Below, one piece after another: positions 4,414 to 28,073 of a stretch of DNA of 47,396 bases. The first letter of the stretch is position 1. Each line of letters begins with the position of its first letter. Origin of the DNA: a virus; IMG/VR virus record IMGVR_UViG_3300029893_000507, positions 1 to 47,396 of that record, one strand, 5' to 3'. A model generated the notes under the pieces. That model made no database searches. It had not been told where the DNA came from and worked only from the letters and a program-made list of their open reading frames with translations. Position numbers and translations under genes: made by a program.

Positions 4414-5949
4414 TCAGCCCCACAAGGTCAGCGTCATGGTGTCGCGGGCGCCGGTGGTCTCGATGCCGAGGCAGACGAAGTCGCGGCCGGCCGCGTAGCC
4501 CAGCTGCGCCGTGGCGATCCGCAGTTCGGTGCCCAGGTCGATCGCCGCGTTGGTCCGGTCGAGACGCACCTTGACCCGCACCATGTCGCGGCGTGTGCCG
4601 TACAGCGCCTGCAGCCGTGCCGCCTCCGCCTCGGCATCGGCCTTGGCGACCAGCAGCGTCTGGCGGCGCAGTTCCGGCGCCAGCGGGTGCTTGGCGGCGA
4701 CGGCGGCGTCCTCGGCGGTCTCCACCGTCCGCCAGGCGCTGCCCAACCAGGCGCGGTCCTCTTCGGCCACGGCGCCCAGCACCTCGGTCAGGACGGTGGG
4801 GTTGTGGTCGTAGTCGAGCAGAACCCGGCGCACCGGCAGGCCGTTGCCGGCGTCGTTGGTGGCCTGGCGCTCGATCGCCAGGATCTCCACCTCGGTCAGG
4901 GTCATGACCGGCGCGCCGGGGGCGACCAGGCGCCCGAGCCGGAACACGCCGGCCAGGTCGAACCAGTAGTAGGCGCCGATGCTCTCGCACAATTCGTCGA
5001 GCACCTCCAAAACCGTCCGCGCCTCGGCCACGTACAGGCCGACCGGCGCCGGCGCCGCGGCGGCCACGGCGGCGATCGCCGCGGCATCGACCTCGGCCGC
5101 CGTCAGGCCGCCGGCGCTGGTGGCGATGCGCTCGATGATCTCGGCGGCGGTGGTCACGTAGCCACCGGCGGAGTCGCCGCGCACGTCGGCGGTGACGCCG
5201 CCGGCCCGCGAGCCCAACCGGAACAGACCCAGCGCGATGCAAGTGGCGTAGGTGCCTTCCGCCACCGCCGCGCCCTGCAGCGCCGCCAGATCCGGGTAGT
5301 CACCGTCGAAGTCGTAGGGGACGCCGAGGTCGCGCACGGCGTCGATGCCGGCGACGGCGCCGTCATTGACCTGGAAGATCAGCAGCGCCGCGTTGACCAG
5401 CACCGGCGTGACGTTGCGCTTCGACCCCCAACAGCGCGGCTTGGGCTGGCCGGCGATCTCGGCGCCGCCCTCGATGCCGGCGGTCCCGACATTGGTGCCG
5501 GCATAGCGGTTGCTCTGCAGTGGCCGGTCCAGCTCGGCCAGGCGATCGCGCAGCCGGATCACGGCGCGACTGGCCGATATCTCCGGCAGGTCCATGGTGC
5601 CGCGGAAGACCCGCGTGAACTCGGACGGAAACGCCCCGCCCTGGGCGCCGACCCAGATGCTGATCGCGCGGCCGTCGAGGCCGTAGTCGAGCAGATGGTC
5701 GAGGCCGCCGTCATCGTTGATCAGCACCATCGCGCCGGCGCCGACTTGGCTGCGCCCTGCGGTGCGGCCGTCGGCGAAGACCATGCGCGACATGTTCGCC
5801 GGTTCCAGGATGCGCGGGTCGAAATGGGTGCTCGCCGGCGTGTCCGTGGTGCGGCTGGTAAAGCCGGTGCCGCTGGCCCAGCGCAGGGTGGCCAGGCCGG
5901 CGCCGGTATGCGCCTCGGCCTCGACGGCATAGACCTGCAAGGCCGTCAT
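4414..5949 (-). CDS. Large tail tip protein
   Basis: 511-aa protein immediately downstream of the tape measure gene and overlapping it in an ATGA junction. It opens with a beta-rich region (about 1-160) with a segment on reaction to tail geometry unknown, then an Ala-rich part with helices (about 280-330) and a second beta domain. In lambda this place is held by the M-L-K-I-J tail-tip genes; none of those signatures (for example an NlpC/P60 peptidase or the J fold) is visible. It is best called a putative baseplate hub or tail-tip protein, from position and length only. Confidence 0.7.
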   Translation of the reverse strand: MTALQVYAVEAEAHTGAGLATLRWASGTGFTSRTTDTPASTHFDPRILEPANMSRMVFADGRTAGRSQVGAGAMVLINDDGGLDHLLDYGLDGRAISIWVGAQGGAFPSEFTRVFRGTMDLPEISASRAVIRLRDRLAELDRPLQSNRYAGTNVGTAGIEGGAEIAGQPKPRCWGSKRNVTPVLVNAALLIFQVNDGAVAGIDAVRDLGVPYDFDGDYPDLAALQGAAVAEGTYATCIALGLFRLGSRAGGVTADVRGDSAGGYVTTAAEIIERIATSAGGLTAAEVDAAAIAAVAAAAPAPVGLYVAEARTVLEVLDELCESIGAYYWFDLAGVFRLGRLVAPGAPVMTLTEVEILAIERQATNDAGNGLPVRRVLLDYDHNPTVLTEVLGAVAEEDRAWLGSAWRTVETAEDAAVAAKHPLAPELRRQTLLVAKADAEAEAARLQALYGTRRDMVRVKVRLDRTNAAIDLGTELRIATAQLGYAAGRDFVCLGIETTGARDTMTLTLWG

Positions 5950-8900
5950 CGCGCCACCGCCCGGCGCAGCGGCGCCTCCAGTTCCTCGAGACGCGTCTCC
6001 AGTCGGGCGATCGCGGCCCGTAGCGCCCGGTTCTCGGCCGCCGCCTGGCCCGCTGCCCGCTGGGCGGTCGCCTCGAGCGTGGCGGTGACCCGGCGCAGCT
6101 CGGCGACGGTTTCGCCGCTGTCGTTGGCGTTGGCGGCCAAGCGTTCGAGCAGACGGCTGTGCGGCACCGAGAACACCCGCTCGCCGGGCATCAGCAGCGC
6201 CGGCACGCTGTCGCGGCCGGGAGTGCCGCCGGTGACCAGGCCGCCGGCCGCGAAACCCGGCAGGTCGAGCGAGCGGCCGAGGCCGGCGATCGCCGCGCGC
6301 ACGCGCTCCTCGATCTCGACGAAGCCGCGCGTCGATCCGAACACCGCCTGCGCCGCCTCGAGCAGCGCGCTGGCCTGGCCGGTGACGCGCTCGAACGCCG
6401 CCTCGTCACCGCCCCGCGCCGACGCGACGATGGTGTCGAACTGCCGCTGCGCCTCGGCCAGCTTGTCGGTCGGGCTTAGGCTCGACAGGTCGCCCAGCAC
6501 CTGCGCGTCGAGCCACTCCCGCAGCGACCGCGCCGCCGCGAGCTGCTGCGCGGCGGTCCGGCGCTGCTCGTCGACCATCCGCTCGCCGTACTGTTCCAGG
6601 ACCTGCAGCCGCTTTTCCGCGATCAGCCGCTCGGCCGTCACCAGGTCACCGCCGATCGTCTTGACGTCGCGGCGCAACGCGATCGCCCACTCGGCCCATT
6701 GCTCGAGGGCCAGCGCCTTGGGGTCGGTCAGGCCGAGCAGCTCGCGGCGCAGGGTCTCGTTGACATTGTCCCTGATGATGCCGAGTTGGTTGCGCTCGGC
6801 CGCCGTGACCTGGGCCGGATCGAGGCCGAAATCGGCCACGCCTTCCTTGAGCGCCTTCATCTGCGCCTTGAAATTGTCGATCATCGCCGTGAAGGGCGAC
6901 TGCGCCTTCTCGGCCGCCTTGCTCATCTCCTCGAGCGCCGCCACCAGCCCTTCCTTGGTGCGCAGGAAGTCGTCGAGCACCCGCGTCACGCTCGCTTCGG
7001 TCGGGGCGTCCTCCATGTCCATGAGCGCGCGCCTCAGGGCCTTCGGCACGTCCTCATAGAGGCCGTTGAGCAGCCCCCTGCGGAGCTGCAGGAACATCTT
7101 GTCCCTGATCTCGGACTCGCTCTTTCCCTGGACGTAGACCCCGTATTGGCCGCCGCTGTACGTATCGATCTCCAGGTCGAGCGTCTCTCCGACCTTACGG
7201 AACAGGCCGACCAACGCCTTGCCGATTTCGCCGGTGGCTTTCGACGGGTAACCACCCTCGGTGATCGACGTGTAGCCGAACCCCTTCTCGCCCCGGGGCT
7301 CGACCACGACCCTGCCGTAGGGGTCCTTTTTCTTGCTGCCGAACAGGCCGCCGATCGCGTTTCCGAGGAACGCGCCGATGGCGGTCCCGACGGACGGAAT
7401 CGGAATGAACGAGCCGGCGATCGCGCCGAGAGTGCCGCCGATATTGGCGGCCATGCCGCGGTCGCCGAGCAGCAGGTTGGCACCCAGGTTGCCGACGAAG
7501 CCGCCGGCCATCCCCGACAGGCTGCTCAAGTTGAGGCCGGCATTGCCGAATGTCGCCGCCGTCTCGGCGCCGCCGAGCCAATTGCCGACACTGGCGAAAG
7601 TGTTGCCCATGGCCGCGCTGCCGGTGGTCCAGGTCGCGCCGGAGAACAGCGACGAGCCCATGCTGAGCGCGTCGCCGCCGTAGCCGAACCCGCCACCCCC
7701 GCCGCCGCCGGCGATCTGCCCGGCGATGTTGGCGACCTGCCCGCCGGTGCCGCCGCCCGACCCGCCGAACAGCGCCGGCGCCGATCCGACGACGCGGGTG
7801 GCGATCGGCAGCACGATCTGCGCCTTGATCGCCTCGATGGCGATGCGCCGGAACAGGTCCTTGAACGACTGGACGATGTCGAACTTCCTGTCCTCGAGCA
7901 CGATCGAGTCGTACAGGGTCTCCGACCAGTCGTCGGCGATGTTGTCGGCGACGCGGTTGAGCTCGCGCGCCGTCTGCTCGGCCGCCCGCTGCTGCTCGCG
8001 CGCCGCGTCCTCGGCGGCGCGTTCGGCGTCCTTCTGCGCGTCGGTGGTCGCCTTGATGGCGCGCTCGAGGTCGCGGTTGTGGAGCACGAGTTCGGCGATT
8101 TGGCGGCCCTCCTTCGACTTGAGGTCGATGCCCTGTTCGCGCAGCGCGTTTTCGACGGCAATTAGGTCCTGAACGGTCTGCAGGGCCGAGGCGCCTTCAC
8201 GGTGCGCTTCCTCGAGGCGCACAAGTTGCTCGTTTTCCAGCTCCAGCGTCTCGACGTAGGTCTCGATCTTCTCGCGGGCTTCGTCGCTCTCGAAACTTTC
8301 CTTGGACTTGATCGCGTCATCGATGCTCTGGCGAATCTTGTCGAACTCGGCCTTGACCTTCGCCAGCGCCTCTGCCTGCTGGTTGATGGCCGTGTAGTCC
8401 ACGAAGGACTCAAACATCGGGTCGGCGCTCGGGTCCTGCGTGATCGCGTTGACCGCGGCGGCCTGCGCCAGCAACAGGTCGAGCTGCGCCTGCGCCGCCG
8501 TGACCTTGGCGCTGACGTTCGCCAGTATCTCGGCGCGCTCCTCACGGAGCAGCTGGGCCGACGTCTTGGTGGCGTCGTTCAGCCGCTTGGCGAAGGCCTC
8601 GGCCTGTTCGATCGCGTCTTCGTACTGCTCGATGGCATCTGCGGCGCCCTTGGCGGCGTCGTCGGTGTCCCAGAACGCCACCGCCAGCGCGCCCACCACG
8701 GCACCGGCAGCGCCAATGACGGCGCCCCACGGCCCGAAGGCGCCGAGCATCTGCGAGCCCTGCTGGGTGAAGGCGACGACCGCATTCTGGCCGCTGGCGA
8801 TTTGGACAGCGAAGTCGCCGACCTGGTAACCGGTCTGTTGCAGAACGCCGCCCAGGCGCTGAGCGCTTTTCGATCCGGCGGCAATGGCTTGGCTGGAGAG

Positions 8901-9311
8901 GTTGTGGGCGGCGGTGACTTGTTTCATGCCCGTGACCTGCGCCGCGAAGCCCGCCTTCGTGCGCGCGAGAGCGGCGGCGTACTCGTGCTGATTGATAGCG
9001 CCGACCTTCAGGGCCCGGTTCACCTCGGCTAGCTCAGCCCGGTACTTTTGCTGGGCGGCGAACAGCGGGTTGTACTTGGCGCGCAGGCCGTCCAGCTCGC
9101 GGCCATAGGCCTCGATGTCCGCGGCACGTTTGGCGAAGTCGCCGGCGCCAGCCTTGCCGATGCCTTCGATGCCGGCCTTGGCCTGCTCGGCGGCCTTCTT
9201 AATCCGCTCGAAAGCCGCATCGCCGCGTTCGCCGATCTGCTCCAGGGCACGCCTGACCGTGTCGGCGTCCTGCGTAGACAGCCGGATGACGTAGTCTTGA
9301 GCATTCGCCAT
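5946..9311 (-). CDS. Tail tape measure protein
   Basis: 1121-aa protein, the longest in the window. It has the features of a lambda-type tape measure: a helical N-terminus with many Ala/Glu/Lys heptads, a hydrophobic Gly/Ala segment at about residues 190-215 that may insert in the host membrane, long coiled-coil stretches (about 225-450), a Gly-rich hydrophobic middle (about 500-680), and a final coiled coil (about 1060-1121) preceded by a G-G-x-P-G-x-D-S-V-P-A-L-L-M-P-G-E motif typical of tape measures. It sets tail length and takes part in DNA entry. The start lies four bases after the stop of the -1 frameshift product of the preceding gene, exactly as expected of a G/GT-H arrangement. Confidence 0.93.
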   Translation of the reverse strand: MANAQDYVIRLSTQDADTVRRALEQIGERGDAAFERIKKAAEQAKAGIEGIGKAGAGDFAKRAADIEAYGRELDGLRAKYNPLFAAQQKYRAELAEVNRALKVGAINQHEYAAALARTKAGFAAQVTGMKQVTAAHNLSSQAIAAGSKSAQRLGGVLQQTGYQVGDFAVQIASGQNAVVAFTQQGSQMLGAFGPWGAVIGAAGAVVGALAVAFWDTDDAAKGAADAIEQYEDAIEQAEAFAKRLNDATKTSAQLLREERAEILANVSAKVTAAQAQLDLLLAQAAAVNAITQDPSADPMFESFVDYTAINQQAEALAKVKAEFDKIRQSIDDAIKSKESFESDEAREKIETYVETLELENEQLVRLEEAHREGASALQTVQDLIAVENALREQGIDLKSKEGRQIAELVLHNRDLERAIKATTDAQKDAERAAEDAAREQQRAAEQTARELNRVADNIADDWSETLYDSIVLEDRKFDIVQSFKDLFRRIAIEAIKAQIVLPIATRVVGSAPALFGGSGGGTGGQVANIAGQIAGGGGGGGFGYGGDALSMGSSLFSGATWTTGSAAMGNTFASVGNWLGGAETAATFGNAGLNLSSLSGMAGGFVGNLGANLLLGDRGMAANIGGTLGAIAGSFIPIPSVGTAIGAFLGNAIGGLFGSKKKDPYGRVVVEPRGEKGFGYTSITEGGYPSKATGEIGKALVGLFRKVGETLDLEIDTYSGGQYGVYVQGKSESEIRDKMFLQLRRGLLNGLYEDVPKALRRALMDMEDAPTEASVTRVLDDFLRTKEGLVAALEEMSKAAEKAQSPFTAMIDNFKAQMKALKEGVADFGLDPAQVTAAERNQLGIIRDNVNETLRRELLGLTDPKALALEQWAEWAIALRRDVKTIGGDLVTAERLIAEKRLQVLEQYGERMVDEQRRTAAQQLAAARSLREWLDAQVLGDLSSLSPTDKLAEAQRQFDTIVASARGGDEAAFERVTGQASALLEAAQAVFGSTRGFVEIEERVRAAIAGLGRSLDLPGFAAGGLVTGGTPGRDSVPALLMPGERVFSVPHSRLLERLAANANDSGETVAELRRVTATLEATAQRAAGQAAAENRALRAAIARLETRLEELEAPLRRAVAR

Positions 9312-9314
9312 CGT

Positions 9315-9605
9315 TCAGTCGTTCCCTGGGTGCAGTTCCGAATGAGCCGTCGAAAGGACGGCGAAGGCATCGAGCATCGTCGCCGCCTGGTCGCCGGCGC
9401 CGCCGGCTTCCGGGAGATGGCCGACGCTCATGCCGCCCGCGTACATCCGCCACAGCCTGACCGTCTCGTGATCGCCGTCGGTCAGGCTGTTGGCGGGGTT
9501 TTCGGTGTAGGTCTCGCCGTAGAGAGACCAGCCGGCGCCACCGTCTAGCGGTTGGTCGCCTTGGAACGCCCCCGGCTGCTCCGCGACAGCGAGGGCGATT
9601 CGGAG
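9315..9605 (-). CDS. Tail assembly chaperone extension (GT product, -1 frame)
   Basis: This reading frame has no start of its own but follows on from the chaperone gene by a -1 ribosomal frameshift at the A-AAA-AAC heptamer (bases 9611-9605, read leftward). From 9605 it encodes 96 residues with no stop until TGA at 9317-9315, four bases before the tape measure ATG. The sequence is protein-like: it has a W-S-L-Y-G-E-T-Y segment, LWRMYAGG and a G-D-Q-A-A-T-M-L-D-A-F motif resembling C-terminal parts of GT-type chaperones. The fused product would be about 283 aa. In lambda, gpGT bridges the tape measure and the tail tube subunit during assembly. Confidence 0.85.
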   Translation of the reverse strand, partial: LRIALAVAEQPGAFQGDQPLDGGAGWSLYGETYTENPANSLTDGDHETVRLWRMYAGGMSVGHLPEAGGAGDQAATMLDAFAVLSTAHSELHPGND

Positions 9606-10165
9606 TTTTTTTCCTGAGCCTTGCTGACATGCATCAGCCCGATGGCGTGCCAGCCGATGGTGCGCAGATCATCGTCCTCGAGCTGCGCCAGCGTCTCGTC
9701 GGTGGTGACGCCGTTCTTGCGCACGAACTCGCCGTCGACGTTCTCCCAGCCCAGCAGGAACAGGCGGGCCGCGATCAGCGGCGCCACCTCCATCCAATAC
9801 TGGTGGTCGCCTTCCAGCGCCGCGAACGGGCCATGGAAGGTGCGGACGTGGCGAGAGACCTCGGCGATGCGCGCCGCCAGTTCGCGATCCTCGCTGCGCT
9901 GCTCGCGCGGCATCGCCTCGAACGCGTCGATATCCTCGATCAGCGCATCCTTGTTGGCCGGATCGAGCAGCCGCACGCCTTCGCGCAGGGCCTCAAAAAA
10001 AGCGGACTCGCCGGGGAAAGTCGCGCCGGCGGCGGTGACCTGGCGTCGCCAGTTGGCGCGCTCCAGGTAGGAGGCGGTGCGAATCAGGAAGACCGGCGCG
10101 GGGTCGCGCTCGGCCAGGTGCGGCGGCGTGTAGCGCTCCACCGTCTTGGTCGAAGTCGGAAGCAT
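9545..10165 (-). CDS. Tail assembly chaperone (gpG-like)
   Basis: 206-aa protein made by normal (zero-frame) translation. It lies between the tail tube gene and the tape measure gene, the position of gpG/gpGT in lambda-like phages. The sequence is acidic and helical, with no enzymatic motif. Near the end it reads through codons GAA-AAA-AAC, the zero-frame phase of a perfect slippery heptamer, after which the zero-frame tail (about 20 Ser/Arg-rich residues) looks unselected while the -1 frame looks protein-like. The product probably binds the tape measure before tail tube polymerisation. Confidence 0.85.
   Translation of the reverse strand: MLPTSTKTVERYTPPHLAERDPAPVFLIRTASYLERANWRRQVTAAGATFPGESAFFEALREGVRLLDPANKDALIEDIDAFEAMPREQRSEDRELAARIAEVSRHVRTFHGPFAALEGDHQYWMEVAPLIAARLFLLGWENVDGEFVRKNGVTTDETLAQLEDDDLRTIGWHAIGLMHVSKAQEKNSESPSLSRSSRGRSKATNR
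9605..9611 (-). promoter_or_regulatory. Programmed -1 frameshift site A-AAA-AAC
   Basis: On the minus strand the bases 9613-9605 read GAA AAA AAC in the frame of the chaperone gene, so the heptamer A-AAA-AAC is in exact X-XXY-YYZ phase. This is one of the most efficient -1 slippery sequences in bacteria. The shift gives a 96-residue extension that exactly fills the space up to the tape measure gene. Confidence 0.88.
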
Positions 10166-10256: not shown

Positions 10257-11408
10257 TCAGTAGAAGCAGAGGTAGGCGCCGCCATCCTGGCCAACGCAGT
10301 CGAACGGCACCGTCACGGCCGACAGACCGTTACGGTCGGCCGGCGTCTGGTTCGTGAACAGGCCGGCCGGGACCGTCAGGCCGACGCGGTTGCCGGCCGT
10401 CGAGCCGTAGCGGGCGTGGATGATCCGCTGCGCGCCGGCCCGGAAATCGGCCATCACGTCGCGCGTGGCGATCAGCGTCTCGAGCGGGTCCATCTGGCCC
10501 TGCATGTTGCGGCTGACGATCTCGGCCGGGTCATAGCCTTCGGTGGCGTTCGGATTGTCGGGGTTTATCACCTGGGCGTTGGCATCGACGGACAGCGCCG
10601 CCATCGCCGAAGCGACGCGGTTGACCAGCGCCTTGCCGCCCTTCCAGATCGGCGGCCGTGTGGTGTCGTACGTCGCCGTCGGCACCGCGGCGTCGGTCTT
10701 GGCCTCGAAGATGCCGTTGAACTGGAATCGGATGCGCCCGGGGCCGCCCGACTGCAGCGCGAACCCGGTGGTGCCGCGGCAGCCGACGAACTCGTAGAGA
10801 ACGCCGTCCATGTAGACGTACATCGTGCCGGCCGAGATCGAGCTCGACGCCGGCGCGTACAGGACGTTCGCGGGGATCTGATAGCTCGTCGAAGCGTCAA
10901 TCGCGCCCGACATGGTATCCGTCAGGGTCGCCAGCTTGGCCGCGGTGTAGTCGGCGATGAAGGACGAGCCCTCGACGTTGCCGGTGAAGTCGATCGGCAT
11001 GCCGTTGTAGGCGTCGGCCGTCGACGAGGCCGAAGTGCCGAGGGTGGCCGTGGTGGTCGAGCCGGTGGCGCCGCAGGCCTCGGCCGAGGCCGGGACGGCG
11101 GTTCCGGTCAGCGTCTCGGCCCAGCCGCAGGCCTTGAGCAGCGGCCCGAACTCCGGCGCCGTGCCGGCGGTGCCGGAGCCCTTCAGGTAGACGTCGCAGC
11201 TGATCTGCGCGGTCATGCCGCCGACGATCGCGCCGCGGCTGTCCAGCGAGCCCGTCACCTCGTTGGTGCGGACGATGTTGGGGTTGAACTGGATCTGCGG
11301 GTTTTCGACGAGCACCGCGTCGTCGGCGGCGACGGGCGAGGCATCGGTGCCAGCCGTGGTCTCCGTCTTGAACAGCACGACGGCATTGCGGGAGCGAAGC
11401 GCGGCCAT
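10257..11408 (-). CDS. Major tail tube protein
   Basis: 383-aa protein upstream of the tail chaperone. The N-terminus (MAALRSRNAVVLFKTET, then ENPQIQFNP and a T-G-S-L-D-S-R-G motif at about residues 35-60) matches the pattern of phage tail tube proteins of this family. The body is beta-rich with Ser/Thr/Gly repeats in the middle (about 100-200), compatible with an inserted Ig-like domain. It forms the hollow tube through which DNA passes. A small 42-aa gene precedes it by three bases. Confidence 0.85.
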   Translation of the reverse strand: MAALRSRNAVVLFKTETTAGTDASPVAADDAVLVENPQIQFNPNIVRTNEVTGSLDSRGAIVGGMTAQISCDVYLKGSGTAGTAPEFGPLLKACGWAETLTGTAVPASAEACGATGSTTTATLGTSASSTADAYNGMPIDFTGNVEGSSFIADYTAAKLATLTDTMSGAIDASTSYQIPANVLYAPASSSISAGTMYVYMDGVLYEFVGCRGTTGFALQSGGPGRIRFQFNGIFEAKTDAAVPTATYDTTRPPIWKGGKALVNRVASAMAALSVDANAQVINPDNPNATEGYDPAEIVSRNMQGQMDPLETLIATRDVMADFRAGAQRIIHARYGSTAGNRVGLTVPAGLFTNQTPADRNGLSAVTVPFDCVGQDGGAYLCFY

Positions 11409-25544: not shown

Positions 25545-26513
25545 TCAGTTCACGTAGGCCGGTTCGGCTTCGGCGGCGGCGCCGCGGCGGCCGCGCTTCG
25601 GACGGCGGTCGAGCTGCTCGGGGATGTCGAGCGGGTCGGCGTCGGCCTTCGCCGCGTTCGCCCGGGCGATCTGGCCGCCTTCCCAGCCGCGGTCCCAGGC
25701 GGCGTGCACATCGGTGCCGGCGTCGTGCGGATTGGCCTCGCGCGCCTCGTCGGCCTCGCCCGCCTTGTTGCCGGCGCAGGTCGCCTCGTAGACGGCGTCG
25801 TCGTGTGCAGCCTGCTCGGTCTCGCGATCGGCGGCACCCTTGGCGCGGCCGCGCTCCCACAGCATCGCCTTCGGGGTGCCGTCGGCGTGCGGGTTGGTCT
25901 CGGGGCCGAAGCCGTCGCGGCCGGCCTCCAGGCCCTTATTGAACACGGCGCCGCCGTGTTCGACCTCGCCGTCGTCGGCGGCGGCCAGGCCCTGGCCCCA
26001 GTCGGAGTCGGCCGGCCCGATTTCCTCCGCGCCGTCGCCCTCGCCGCGGGCGGCGCCGGTGCCCTCGCCGTCGGCGTCGTCGAGCGGCTGCGGCGCGGCG
26101 CCGTCGTCACCGTCGGTGGCCGCCTCGACCGGCGGCTCGTCCTCGTCCTGCTCGACCAGGTCGGCCTTGAGCTGATCGAGCGCGTCGAGGAAGTTCAGCA
26201 CCTCGCCCTGCTTCAGCGCGGTGAAGGCCCGGCGCAGATTGCTCTGGATCCGCTCGCCGTCGGCCTCGTCCTCGAGGTCCTGGGCGGTACGGTGGCGCTT
26301 GTAGAGCTTGTAGAACAGCTCGAGGTCGGCGCGTTCGATGCCGCTGTCCTTCTTCAGCCCGCGCCACAGCGCGGTGCGCTCGTCGGTCTTCGGCACGATG
26401 TGGGTGGCCTTCAGATCCGCGATCTCGCAGTCGAGCGCGTAGAGCTGCGCGAAAGCCGTCTTGATCGCGTTGGGAAGCTGGTCGGCGGAAAGCCGCGGGG
26501 CGTCGTTGCTCAT
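25545..26513 (-). CDS. Helical protein with two Rmf/CrpP-like repeats
   Basis: 322-aa acidic protein in three parts. Residues 1-118 are helical, and by pattern only resemble GapR/DUF2312-type coiled coils. Residues 119-185 are an acidic, probably disordered linker. Residues 186-233 and 238-285 each follow the Rmf/CrpP pattern: a G-x-x-A-G-x-x-G segment, then N-P-H, a W and a second G-x-x-x-G. E. coli Rmf binds the ribosome and makes it dormant; Rmf-like domains are common in alphaproteobacterial phages, but their role is not known. A possible hibernation-like effect on host ribosomes is inference. Confidence 0.75.
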   Translation of the reverse strand: MSNDAPRLSADQLPNAIKTAFAQLYALDCEIADLKATHIVPKTDERTALWRGLKKDSGIERADLELFYKLYKRHRTAQDLEDEADGERIQSNLRRAFTALKQGEVLNFLDALDQLKADLVEQDEDEPPVEAATDGDDGAAPQPLDDADGEGTGAARGEGDGAEEIGPADSDWGQGLAAADDGEVEHGGAVFNKGLEAGRDGFGPETNPHADGTPKAMLWERGRAKGAADRETEQAAHDDAVYEATCAGNKAGEADEAREANPHDAGTDVHAAWDRGWEGGQIARANAAKADADPLDIPEQLDRRPKRGRRGAAAEAEPAYVN

Positions 26514-26534: not shown

Positions 26535-28073
26535 TCAGCCGCCGGCGACGACGCGCTGCAGAGCAGCGGGCGACAGCCGGTCGGGAGCGGTGGGGGAACG
26601 GGGTTCGGTGGCCGCGCGCGGCTTCAGGGTCACGCGGTAGTGCGTGCGCGAATGGCAGTCGGGACAGTAGCTCGACCCCGGCTGCGTCGGCTTGCCGCAG
26701 AACTCCCGCGTCGGCCGGACGTCGTCGCCCCAGAGCGGGAACTGGCAGGTGCGCCAGTCCGGGAACACCTTCGGCGCCGGCGCGTGTTGGACAGGCCGCG
26801 GGCCGGCTGGGCCCGCCTTTTCGCCGGATGCACTGGTCGGGAGGTTGCTCCCGGTTCGGGTTGTCCCCGTGCCCGCGGCCTGGGGCGGCGTCGCAGGTGC
26901 GGTGCCGGCCGAGACCTCGGGGCGAGCACTTTGCATTTTCTGCAAAGAAGGCCCGGGAGCGGGCGTCACCCCGCTCCCGGCAGTTGTCAGGGAGGCACGG
27001 TTCAAGATGCGATTGCCGGCGTCCTCAGCGGCGGGTGCCGCATCTTCCCGGCCGGCGGCGGGAAGCTCATTGGTCTGGGCGAGGCGCCAGTTCGGAGTCG
27101 TGTTCCCCGGCTCGGCCGTCTGGCTGCCGTCGGCGATTGTGACGCGCCGGCTGCGCTGGAAGCGCTCGACCTTGATCAGGCTCGCCGCCTCCAGGCGCTT
27201 CAACGAGTTGCTGGCCGTCGCCGGCGACTTGTCGCCGAGGCGCTGGCCGATCTCCTCGTTGCTCGGGCAGACGACGCCGGCCGTCGCGGCCTCAGTGACC
27301 ACGGCCAGCACCCGGAGGTCGGTCGCGGACAGGCGCGCCCTCGGCGCCGGCGCCGGCGGCTGTGCGCCTGGCAGCGTGATCGCGCGGTGCGGCCCGCCAG
27401 AGACGGTGATTAGGCCCAGCTTCTTCAGGTGGAACAGCGCCTTGGCGACCGGGCCGTGCGTCGTCTGGCAGCGCGAGCCGATTTCCTTGTTGGTCAGGCG
27501 GCAGACGCCGTCGACGGCGGCGGCGCGGATGACGTCGAGAACGCGATGGACGTAGGGCGGAAGGATGTGCTGCGGGGCTTCCACCCGCTCCCCAGGCGTC
27601 TCCTGGTTTGCCCGATCGCCATTGGCCACCTGGTCGGGTCCGCGGCTGCCCGCTGCCGCCGGCGGGCATTCGGCCCCGGTTTCGGCTCCAGCCACGCATT
27701 CCGACCGCGGCGTTTCAATGCGGTCGACGCTCTTGGCCTTCATCGCCTCCCCGGGCTCAGGGATCTCGTACCGCTCACACAGCACCGCCGCGGCGCGCTC
27801 ATCGTCGCCGATATGGGTGCCGATTTCCGGAGGGGCCGAAGAGCACTCCCCTTGGACAGCCTCCCCGGCCCCTGCAGCCTCTCCGGATCTCGGCGCGGCG
27901 ACGGCTTCACCGCACTCCCCGGCTGCTGCATCTCGTTCATCGTTCGCCGCGGCCAGCTTCCGCAGCTCGGCCTGCACCTTGATCGCATCGACCTGGATCG
28001 CGCAGGCGATCGCGATCGGGTCGTGGCCGTGCTTCTTGGCGGCGCGCGCCACGCGGGCGGCGAGGTTGCTCAT
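26535..28073 (-). CDS. Two winged helices plus GcrA-type zinc motif
   Basis: 512-aa protein. Residues 1-40 are a helix-turn-helix-like segment, 41-165 a disordered region. Two winged-helix domains follow (about 168-232 with T-N-K-E-I-G-S-R-C-Q-T and about 245-312 with S-N-E-E-I-G-Q-R-L-G-D-K-S). The C-terminus has C443-x-F-P-L-W-G-D, C459-G, Y-C470-x-x-C473-H474, the layout of the C-terminal part of GcrA, the alphaproteobacterial sigma-70 cofactor that acts at methylated promoters. The protein may therefore touch RNA polymerase or the host cell cycle. The zinc motif is read directly; the function is inference. It follows a CII-like regulator. Confidence 0.78.
   Translation of the reverse strand: MSNLAARVARAAKKHGHDPIAIACAIQVDAIKVQAELRKLAAANDERDAAAGECGEAVAAPRSGEAAGAGEAVQGECSSAPPEIGTHIGDDERAAAVLCERYEIPEPGEAMKAKSVDRIETPRSECVAGAETGAECPPAAAGSRGPDQVANGDRANQETPGERVEAPQHILPPYVHRVLDVIRAAAVDGVCRLTNKEIGSRCQTTHGPVAKALFHLKKLGLITVSGGPHRAITLPGAQPPAPAPRARLSATDLRVLAVVTEAATAGVVCPSNEEIGQRLGDKSPATASNSLKRLEAASLIKVERFQRSRRVTIADGSQTAEPGNTTPNWRLAQTNELPAAGREDAAPAAEDAGNRILNRASLTTAGSGVTPAPGPSLQKMQSARPEVSAGTAPATPPQAAGTGTTRTGSNLPTSASGEKAGPAGPRPVQHAPAPKVFPDWRTCQFPLWGDDVRPTREFCGKPTQPGSSYCPDCHSRTHYRVTLKPRAATEPRSPTAPDRLSPAALQRVVAGG

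Follow-up and report, generated by a model that had tools for sequence, protein, structure and literature searches.

Predicted −1 ribosomal frameshifting at an A_AAA_AAC heptamer in a putative two-frame tail assembly chaperone gene of a high-GC phage

How is a long open frame expressed that begins within the end of a 206-aa open reading frame and runs almost to the start of the tape measure gene? The question is raised by the tail gene region of an IMG/VR virus record of 47,396 bases and 68% GC, the whole of which was analysed and is called the window here. A programmed −1 frameshift had been proposed in the initial annotation to account for a gap of 230 bases between the 206-aa open reading frame and the tape measure gene; the gap is indeed present, but measures 233 bases. 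The late genes of the window are carried by the minus strand, with the two-frame gene, a putative tail assembly chaperone gene, located between those of the tail tube and the tape measure protein:

19054-16907, minus strand: terminase large subunit
16676-15219, minus strand: portal
15215-14115, minus strand: head protease
14101-13454, minus strand: head decoration
13395-12424, minus strand: major capsid protein
10257-11408, minus strand: tail tube (major tail) protein, adjoining the chaperone upstream; relatives are annotated as tail tube protein
9545-10165, minus strand: 0-frame open reading frame, 206 aa, predicted G-type tail assembly chaperone (AlphaFold2 model, fold match)
9605-9611, minus strand: slippery heptamer A_AAA_AAC, in phase
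9567-9597, minus strand: candidate stimulatory hairpin, starting 7 nt past the heptamer; not significant in the window itself
9318-9605, minus strand: −1-frame extension, 96 codons, predicted T-type domain beginning LRIALAV; stop TGA at 9317-9315
5946-9311, minus strand: tape measure protein, 1121 aa, directly downstream (phrog_1538, 1.9e-10, and other tape-measure profiles)

The tape measure open reading frame also matches TMP_2, under the cut-off of that family. As a CI-like S24 repressor is encoded in the window, the phage is probably temperate. Elsewhere on the minus strand, PF04957, the ribosome modulation factor domain, is matched above its cut-off (E 1.9e-8) by the predicted protein encoded at 25545-26513, and a 512-aa open reading frame at 26535-28073 combines a LexA-like/Crp-like helix-turn-helix with GcrA-like regions. 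GcrA is an alphaproteobacterial cell-cycle regulator.

The heptamer is read as GA / A AAA AAC / TCC and thus stands in X_XXY_YYZ phase, so that the exact slippery phase claimed at the outset is borne out (9611-9605, minus strand), as is the −1 frame of 96 codons running to TGA at 9317-9315. Residues 1-187 of the open reading frame are common to both predicted products, the unshifted one ending after a 19-residue 0-frame tail with 206 aa and the shifted one, as had been calculated, comprising 283 aa. The −1 frame does stop just before the tape measure ATG (9311), at a distance of three bases (ACG) and not four.

The window alone is no proof of a frameshift, because AAAAAAC, of which a single copy is present in 47 kb on both strands, is expected 0.64 times by chance and because a GC content of 68% makes long open frames frequent. 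The motif is also found in half of the shuffled windows. Relatives were consequential here, as conservation in 25 of 26 of them does, on the sequences compared, exceed chance.

A direct search with the 206-aa protein against phage records and IMG/VR recovered no relative. The tail tube protein led to seven IMG/VR loci, all seven with a two-part gene downstream, and alignments of both parts to further IMG/VR loci and to Azospirillum and Oceanibaculum genome contigs, while a search with the tape measure protein gave partial matches only and was left out of further use. After removal of duplicates, 26 distinct relatives (locus labels L) remained, IMG/VR contigs and several contigs of Azospirillum or Oceanibaculum genomes. 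Since the C-terminal domain is in place at every locus that was found via the N-terminal domain alone or via the tail tube protein, the search with the C-terminal part did not create the result. The initial annotation had named as evidence against its proposal that relatives lack the heptamer or have early stops in the −1 frame. The relatives were compared on both points: a homologous, open downstream frame is present in all 26, and in 25 the downstream domain lies at −1, joined at an in-phase A_AAA_AAC, despite divergence of the domains to about 30% protein identity. The sole exception, the metagenome contig L011, has one A fewer in its run; at 6915-6945 its six A's relate the domains by +1/−2 instead of −1, while its nearest relatives L042 and L043 have seven, and the short run may be a homopolymer or sequencing error or a real variant.

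Two layouts occur among these loci. Past the heptamer, the window and the Azospirillum group have another 19-41 codons in the 0 frame; in L010, L033, L034, L036 and L046 this frame stops at once (AAAAAACTGA). In L013 and L014 another gene stands between the −1 stop and the tape measure gene; a gene of roughly 220 aa in this place is seen in L013, L014 and L066 (78-755), is absent in the window, and is annotated DUF6441 in Synechococcus phage MinM1. L010 carries at 4957-6351 a 465-aa open reading frame inserted between tail tube and chaperone, with no Pfam match above the cut-off.

Such consistency bears on whether the true gene is a single frame broken by a sequencing or assembly indel. The length of the A run does vary in such contigs, as in L011, but the same −1 relation recurs in 25 relatives that were assembled independently, among them isolate genomes from several Azospirillum species and the isolate phage MinM1. 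Because independent assemblies share the −1 relation, the indel reading is already refuted and its probability, in our judgement, practically nil. Expression of the C-terminal domain as a gene of its own, with ribosomes that start on it separately through coupling or re-initiation once the 0 frame has ended, would agree with the deposited annotations of Synechococcus phage S-CBS1, Rhodobacter phage RcWaterboi and MinM1, where two separate genes are given. We nevertheless consider it extremely improbable: the window and many relatives have no ATG, GTG or TTG between the last −1 stop and the conserved start of the domain, and conservation begins with codon 1 of the extension while the first possible start in the window is codon 54. 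With no ATG, GTG or TTG upstream of that codon, the whole −1 frame of the window is untranslatable on its own.

Alternatively, the polymerase might add or drop A's on the run of seven, so that some mRNAs encode the fusion in one frame. Seven A's do precede the C in the window and most relatives, and ribosomal and transcriptional slippage can share sites (PMC5009743). Such transcriptional slippage is still very improbable, as the run has only six A's, short for the polymerase, in L010, L033, L034, L036, L046, L058 and L011, as the final C and the exact codon phase, neither of which polymerase slippage needs, are kept, and as RcWaterboi, a relative by its tail tube protein, has G_GGA_AAC, a heptamer of the ribosomal type without a long run.

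Substitution patterns point to the frame that is selected. Across the 39-41 codons of the overlap in 16 sequences, which like those of the codon counts are mutually related and do not give independent counts, reading the −1 frame gives a median dN/dS of 0.295 with 54% of the changes at third positions, and reading the 0 frame one of 2.26 with 53% at second positions. Over the whole −1 extension the median is 0.34 (all pairs), and 0.33 beyond the 0-frame stop. The contrast in the overlap identifies the −1 frame as the one under selection; by this measure the extension evolves under purifying selection as a protein, and the 0-frame tail that ends the short product can vary freely. Lysine codons outside the site are AAG in 87 and AAA in 18 cases in these related genes, and always AAA at the site, which indicates that the slippery site is constrained at the DNA level.

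Whether a downstream hairpin contributes is suggested, to a limited degree, by the sequences past the heptamer. A hairpin can form 5-8 nt past it in 12 of 14 representatives and none in the other two, with a mean z of −0.8 against codon-preserving shuffles over the 14 and a z of −0.75 for the window; in a further comparison with codon-preserving shuffles the window has a z of −1.1, and strong hairpins are present in L039, L042 and L043 (z about −3) and were not found in L019-L022, L030 or L057. RNAalifold found no consensus structure in 19 sequences. A stem named by hand, 7 nt past the heptamer, shows pair changes on both sides with a covariation score of 0.194, matched by none of 500 shuffles; because the register slid by 3 columns scores as high, the covariation count does not settle the stem. 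Stimulation of the shift by a hairpin is thus possible and suggestive only, and some tailed phages frameshift without stimulators (PMC5009743).

Neither the N-terminal nor the C-terminal domain had a match in PHROGs, and in Pfam both had unrelated sub-threshold matches only. The N-terminal domain was modelled by AlphaFold2 with a mean pLDDT of 92. Among 186 chains compared with this model, YqbN (3klu), which we take to be a phage-derived protein of the XkdN type, ranks first (Z 6.2, 94 residues, rmsd 4.3) and the HK97 tail assembly chaperone (2ob9) third (Z 4.4, 91 residues, rmsd 5.2), both Z values being modest, below 8, and such that a common helical arrangement could explain them. For the G domain, Foldseek by itself returned nothing significant, and the model of the T domain had no meaningful structural match. 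Gene order and the modest fold similarity of the model to two solved chaperones support the assignment of the 206-aa protein as a tail assembly chaperone.

The genomes themselves show the heptamer and its phase, a conserved −1 coding frame and the order of the genes. That these features reflect a programmed −1 ribosomal frameshift of the lambda G/GT type is, on this comparative sequence evidence, nearly certain to us. Most ribosomes would read through in the 0 frame and produce the 206-aa chaperone (G). The 283-aa fusion (GT) would come from a minority that, while tRNA-Lys and tRNA-Asn occupy AAA AAC, slip back by one base on A_AAA_AAC and continue in the −1 frame. While the slippage and its efficiency are what we infer, the protein interactions are borrowed from lambda: by analogy, attachment to the tape measure protein would fall to the G part and recruitment of the tail tube protein to the T part, neither of which would remain in the virion. 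It counts against the proposal that A_AAA_AAC shifts less than A_AAA_AAG in E. coli (PMC5009743). A rather doubtful further reading is that of an undescribed chaperone family of alphaproteobacterial/cyanobacterial phages in which A_AAA_AAC together with a hairpin would be tuned to hosts whose tRNAs allow efficient shifting at this heptamer, unlike those of E. coli.

A lambda-like chaperone role is most likely for the window gene, given its position, its two-part structure and its shift site. The heptamer of lambda is G_GGA_AAG, whereas the window has A_AAA_AAC, and the window gene is without detectable similarity to any Pfam or PHROG chaperone family. Both have a chaperone gene of two frames, placed between those of the major tail protein and the tape measure, with a −1 shift, a predicted one in the window, close to where the first frame ends and with a short and an extended product (PMC5009743); in the window, the −1 frame overlaps the 0-frame end and stops close to the tape measure start. 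In lambda, about 30 gpG are made for each gpGT; the tape measure is bound by the G part and the major tail protein by the T part, and neither remains once the tail is finished (PMC5009743). A_AAA_AAC has been reported for the g-t gene pair of HCTV-2 (PMC5009743), a haloarchaeal tailed virus, the likeness to the window lying in the heptamer.

Synechococcus phage MinM1 (ON981384) has an in-phase A_AAA_AAC followed by tail genes downstream, with a −1 frame 38% identical to the extension of the window, but its 0 frame stops directly after the heptamer (AAAAAACTGA) and extra genes stand between tail tube and chaperone. These (L015, 4516-6367) are an Arc-like repressor, a P22_AR_N-domain gene and two others, in an unusual place. 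That an annotation unaware of the shift loses the C-terminal part, as predicted initially, is exemplified here, the deposited C-terminal gene of MinM1 beginning part way in. In S-CBS1 (gp13/gp14, an isolate) and RcWaterboi (47/48), homologues of the tail tube protein are followed by a chaperone-like pair at −1, whose in-phase heptamer immediately precedes the stop of the 0 frame as it does in MinM1 (AAAAAACTGA in S-CBS1, GGGAAACTGA in RcWaterboi). These chaperones differ in having no detectable homology to those of the window, a profile comparison of the window-family T domain with the T parts of S-CBS1 and RcWaterboi finding nothing; RcWaterboi differs also by its G_GGA_AAC and S-CBS1 by its second part, DUF1799. 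As this DUF1799 part of S-CBS1 (PF08809; L017, 4242-4640) lies in the −1 frame behind an in-phase A_AAA_AAC, proteins with DUF1799 may turn out to be T-type extensions that have been annotated as genes of their own. The Azospirillum prophages L059-L064 encode direct homologues of the two domains, joined by an identical heptamer and shift, and differ by 0-frame tails of 39-41 codons versus 19 and by 37-58% protein identity.

While the mechanism is textbook and A_AAA_AAC at a g-t pair is already known from HCTV-2 (PMC5009743), what the sequences add is a chaperone family without Pfam or PHROGs match and a well-supported gene model. This corrects the chaperone gene of the window and its relatives, whose C-terminal part ordinary gene calling loses or shortens, and a family unseen by Pfam and PHROGs would join the G/GT kind, with A_AAA_AAC retained although AAA is otherwise avoided in these high-GC phage genomes.
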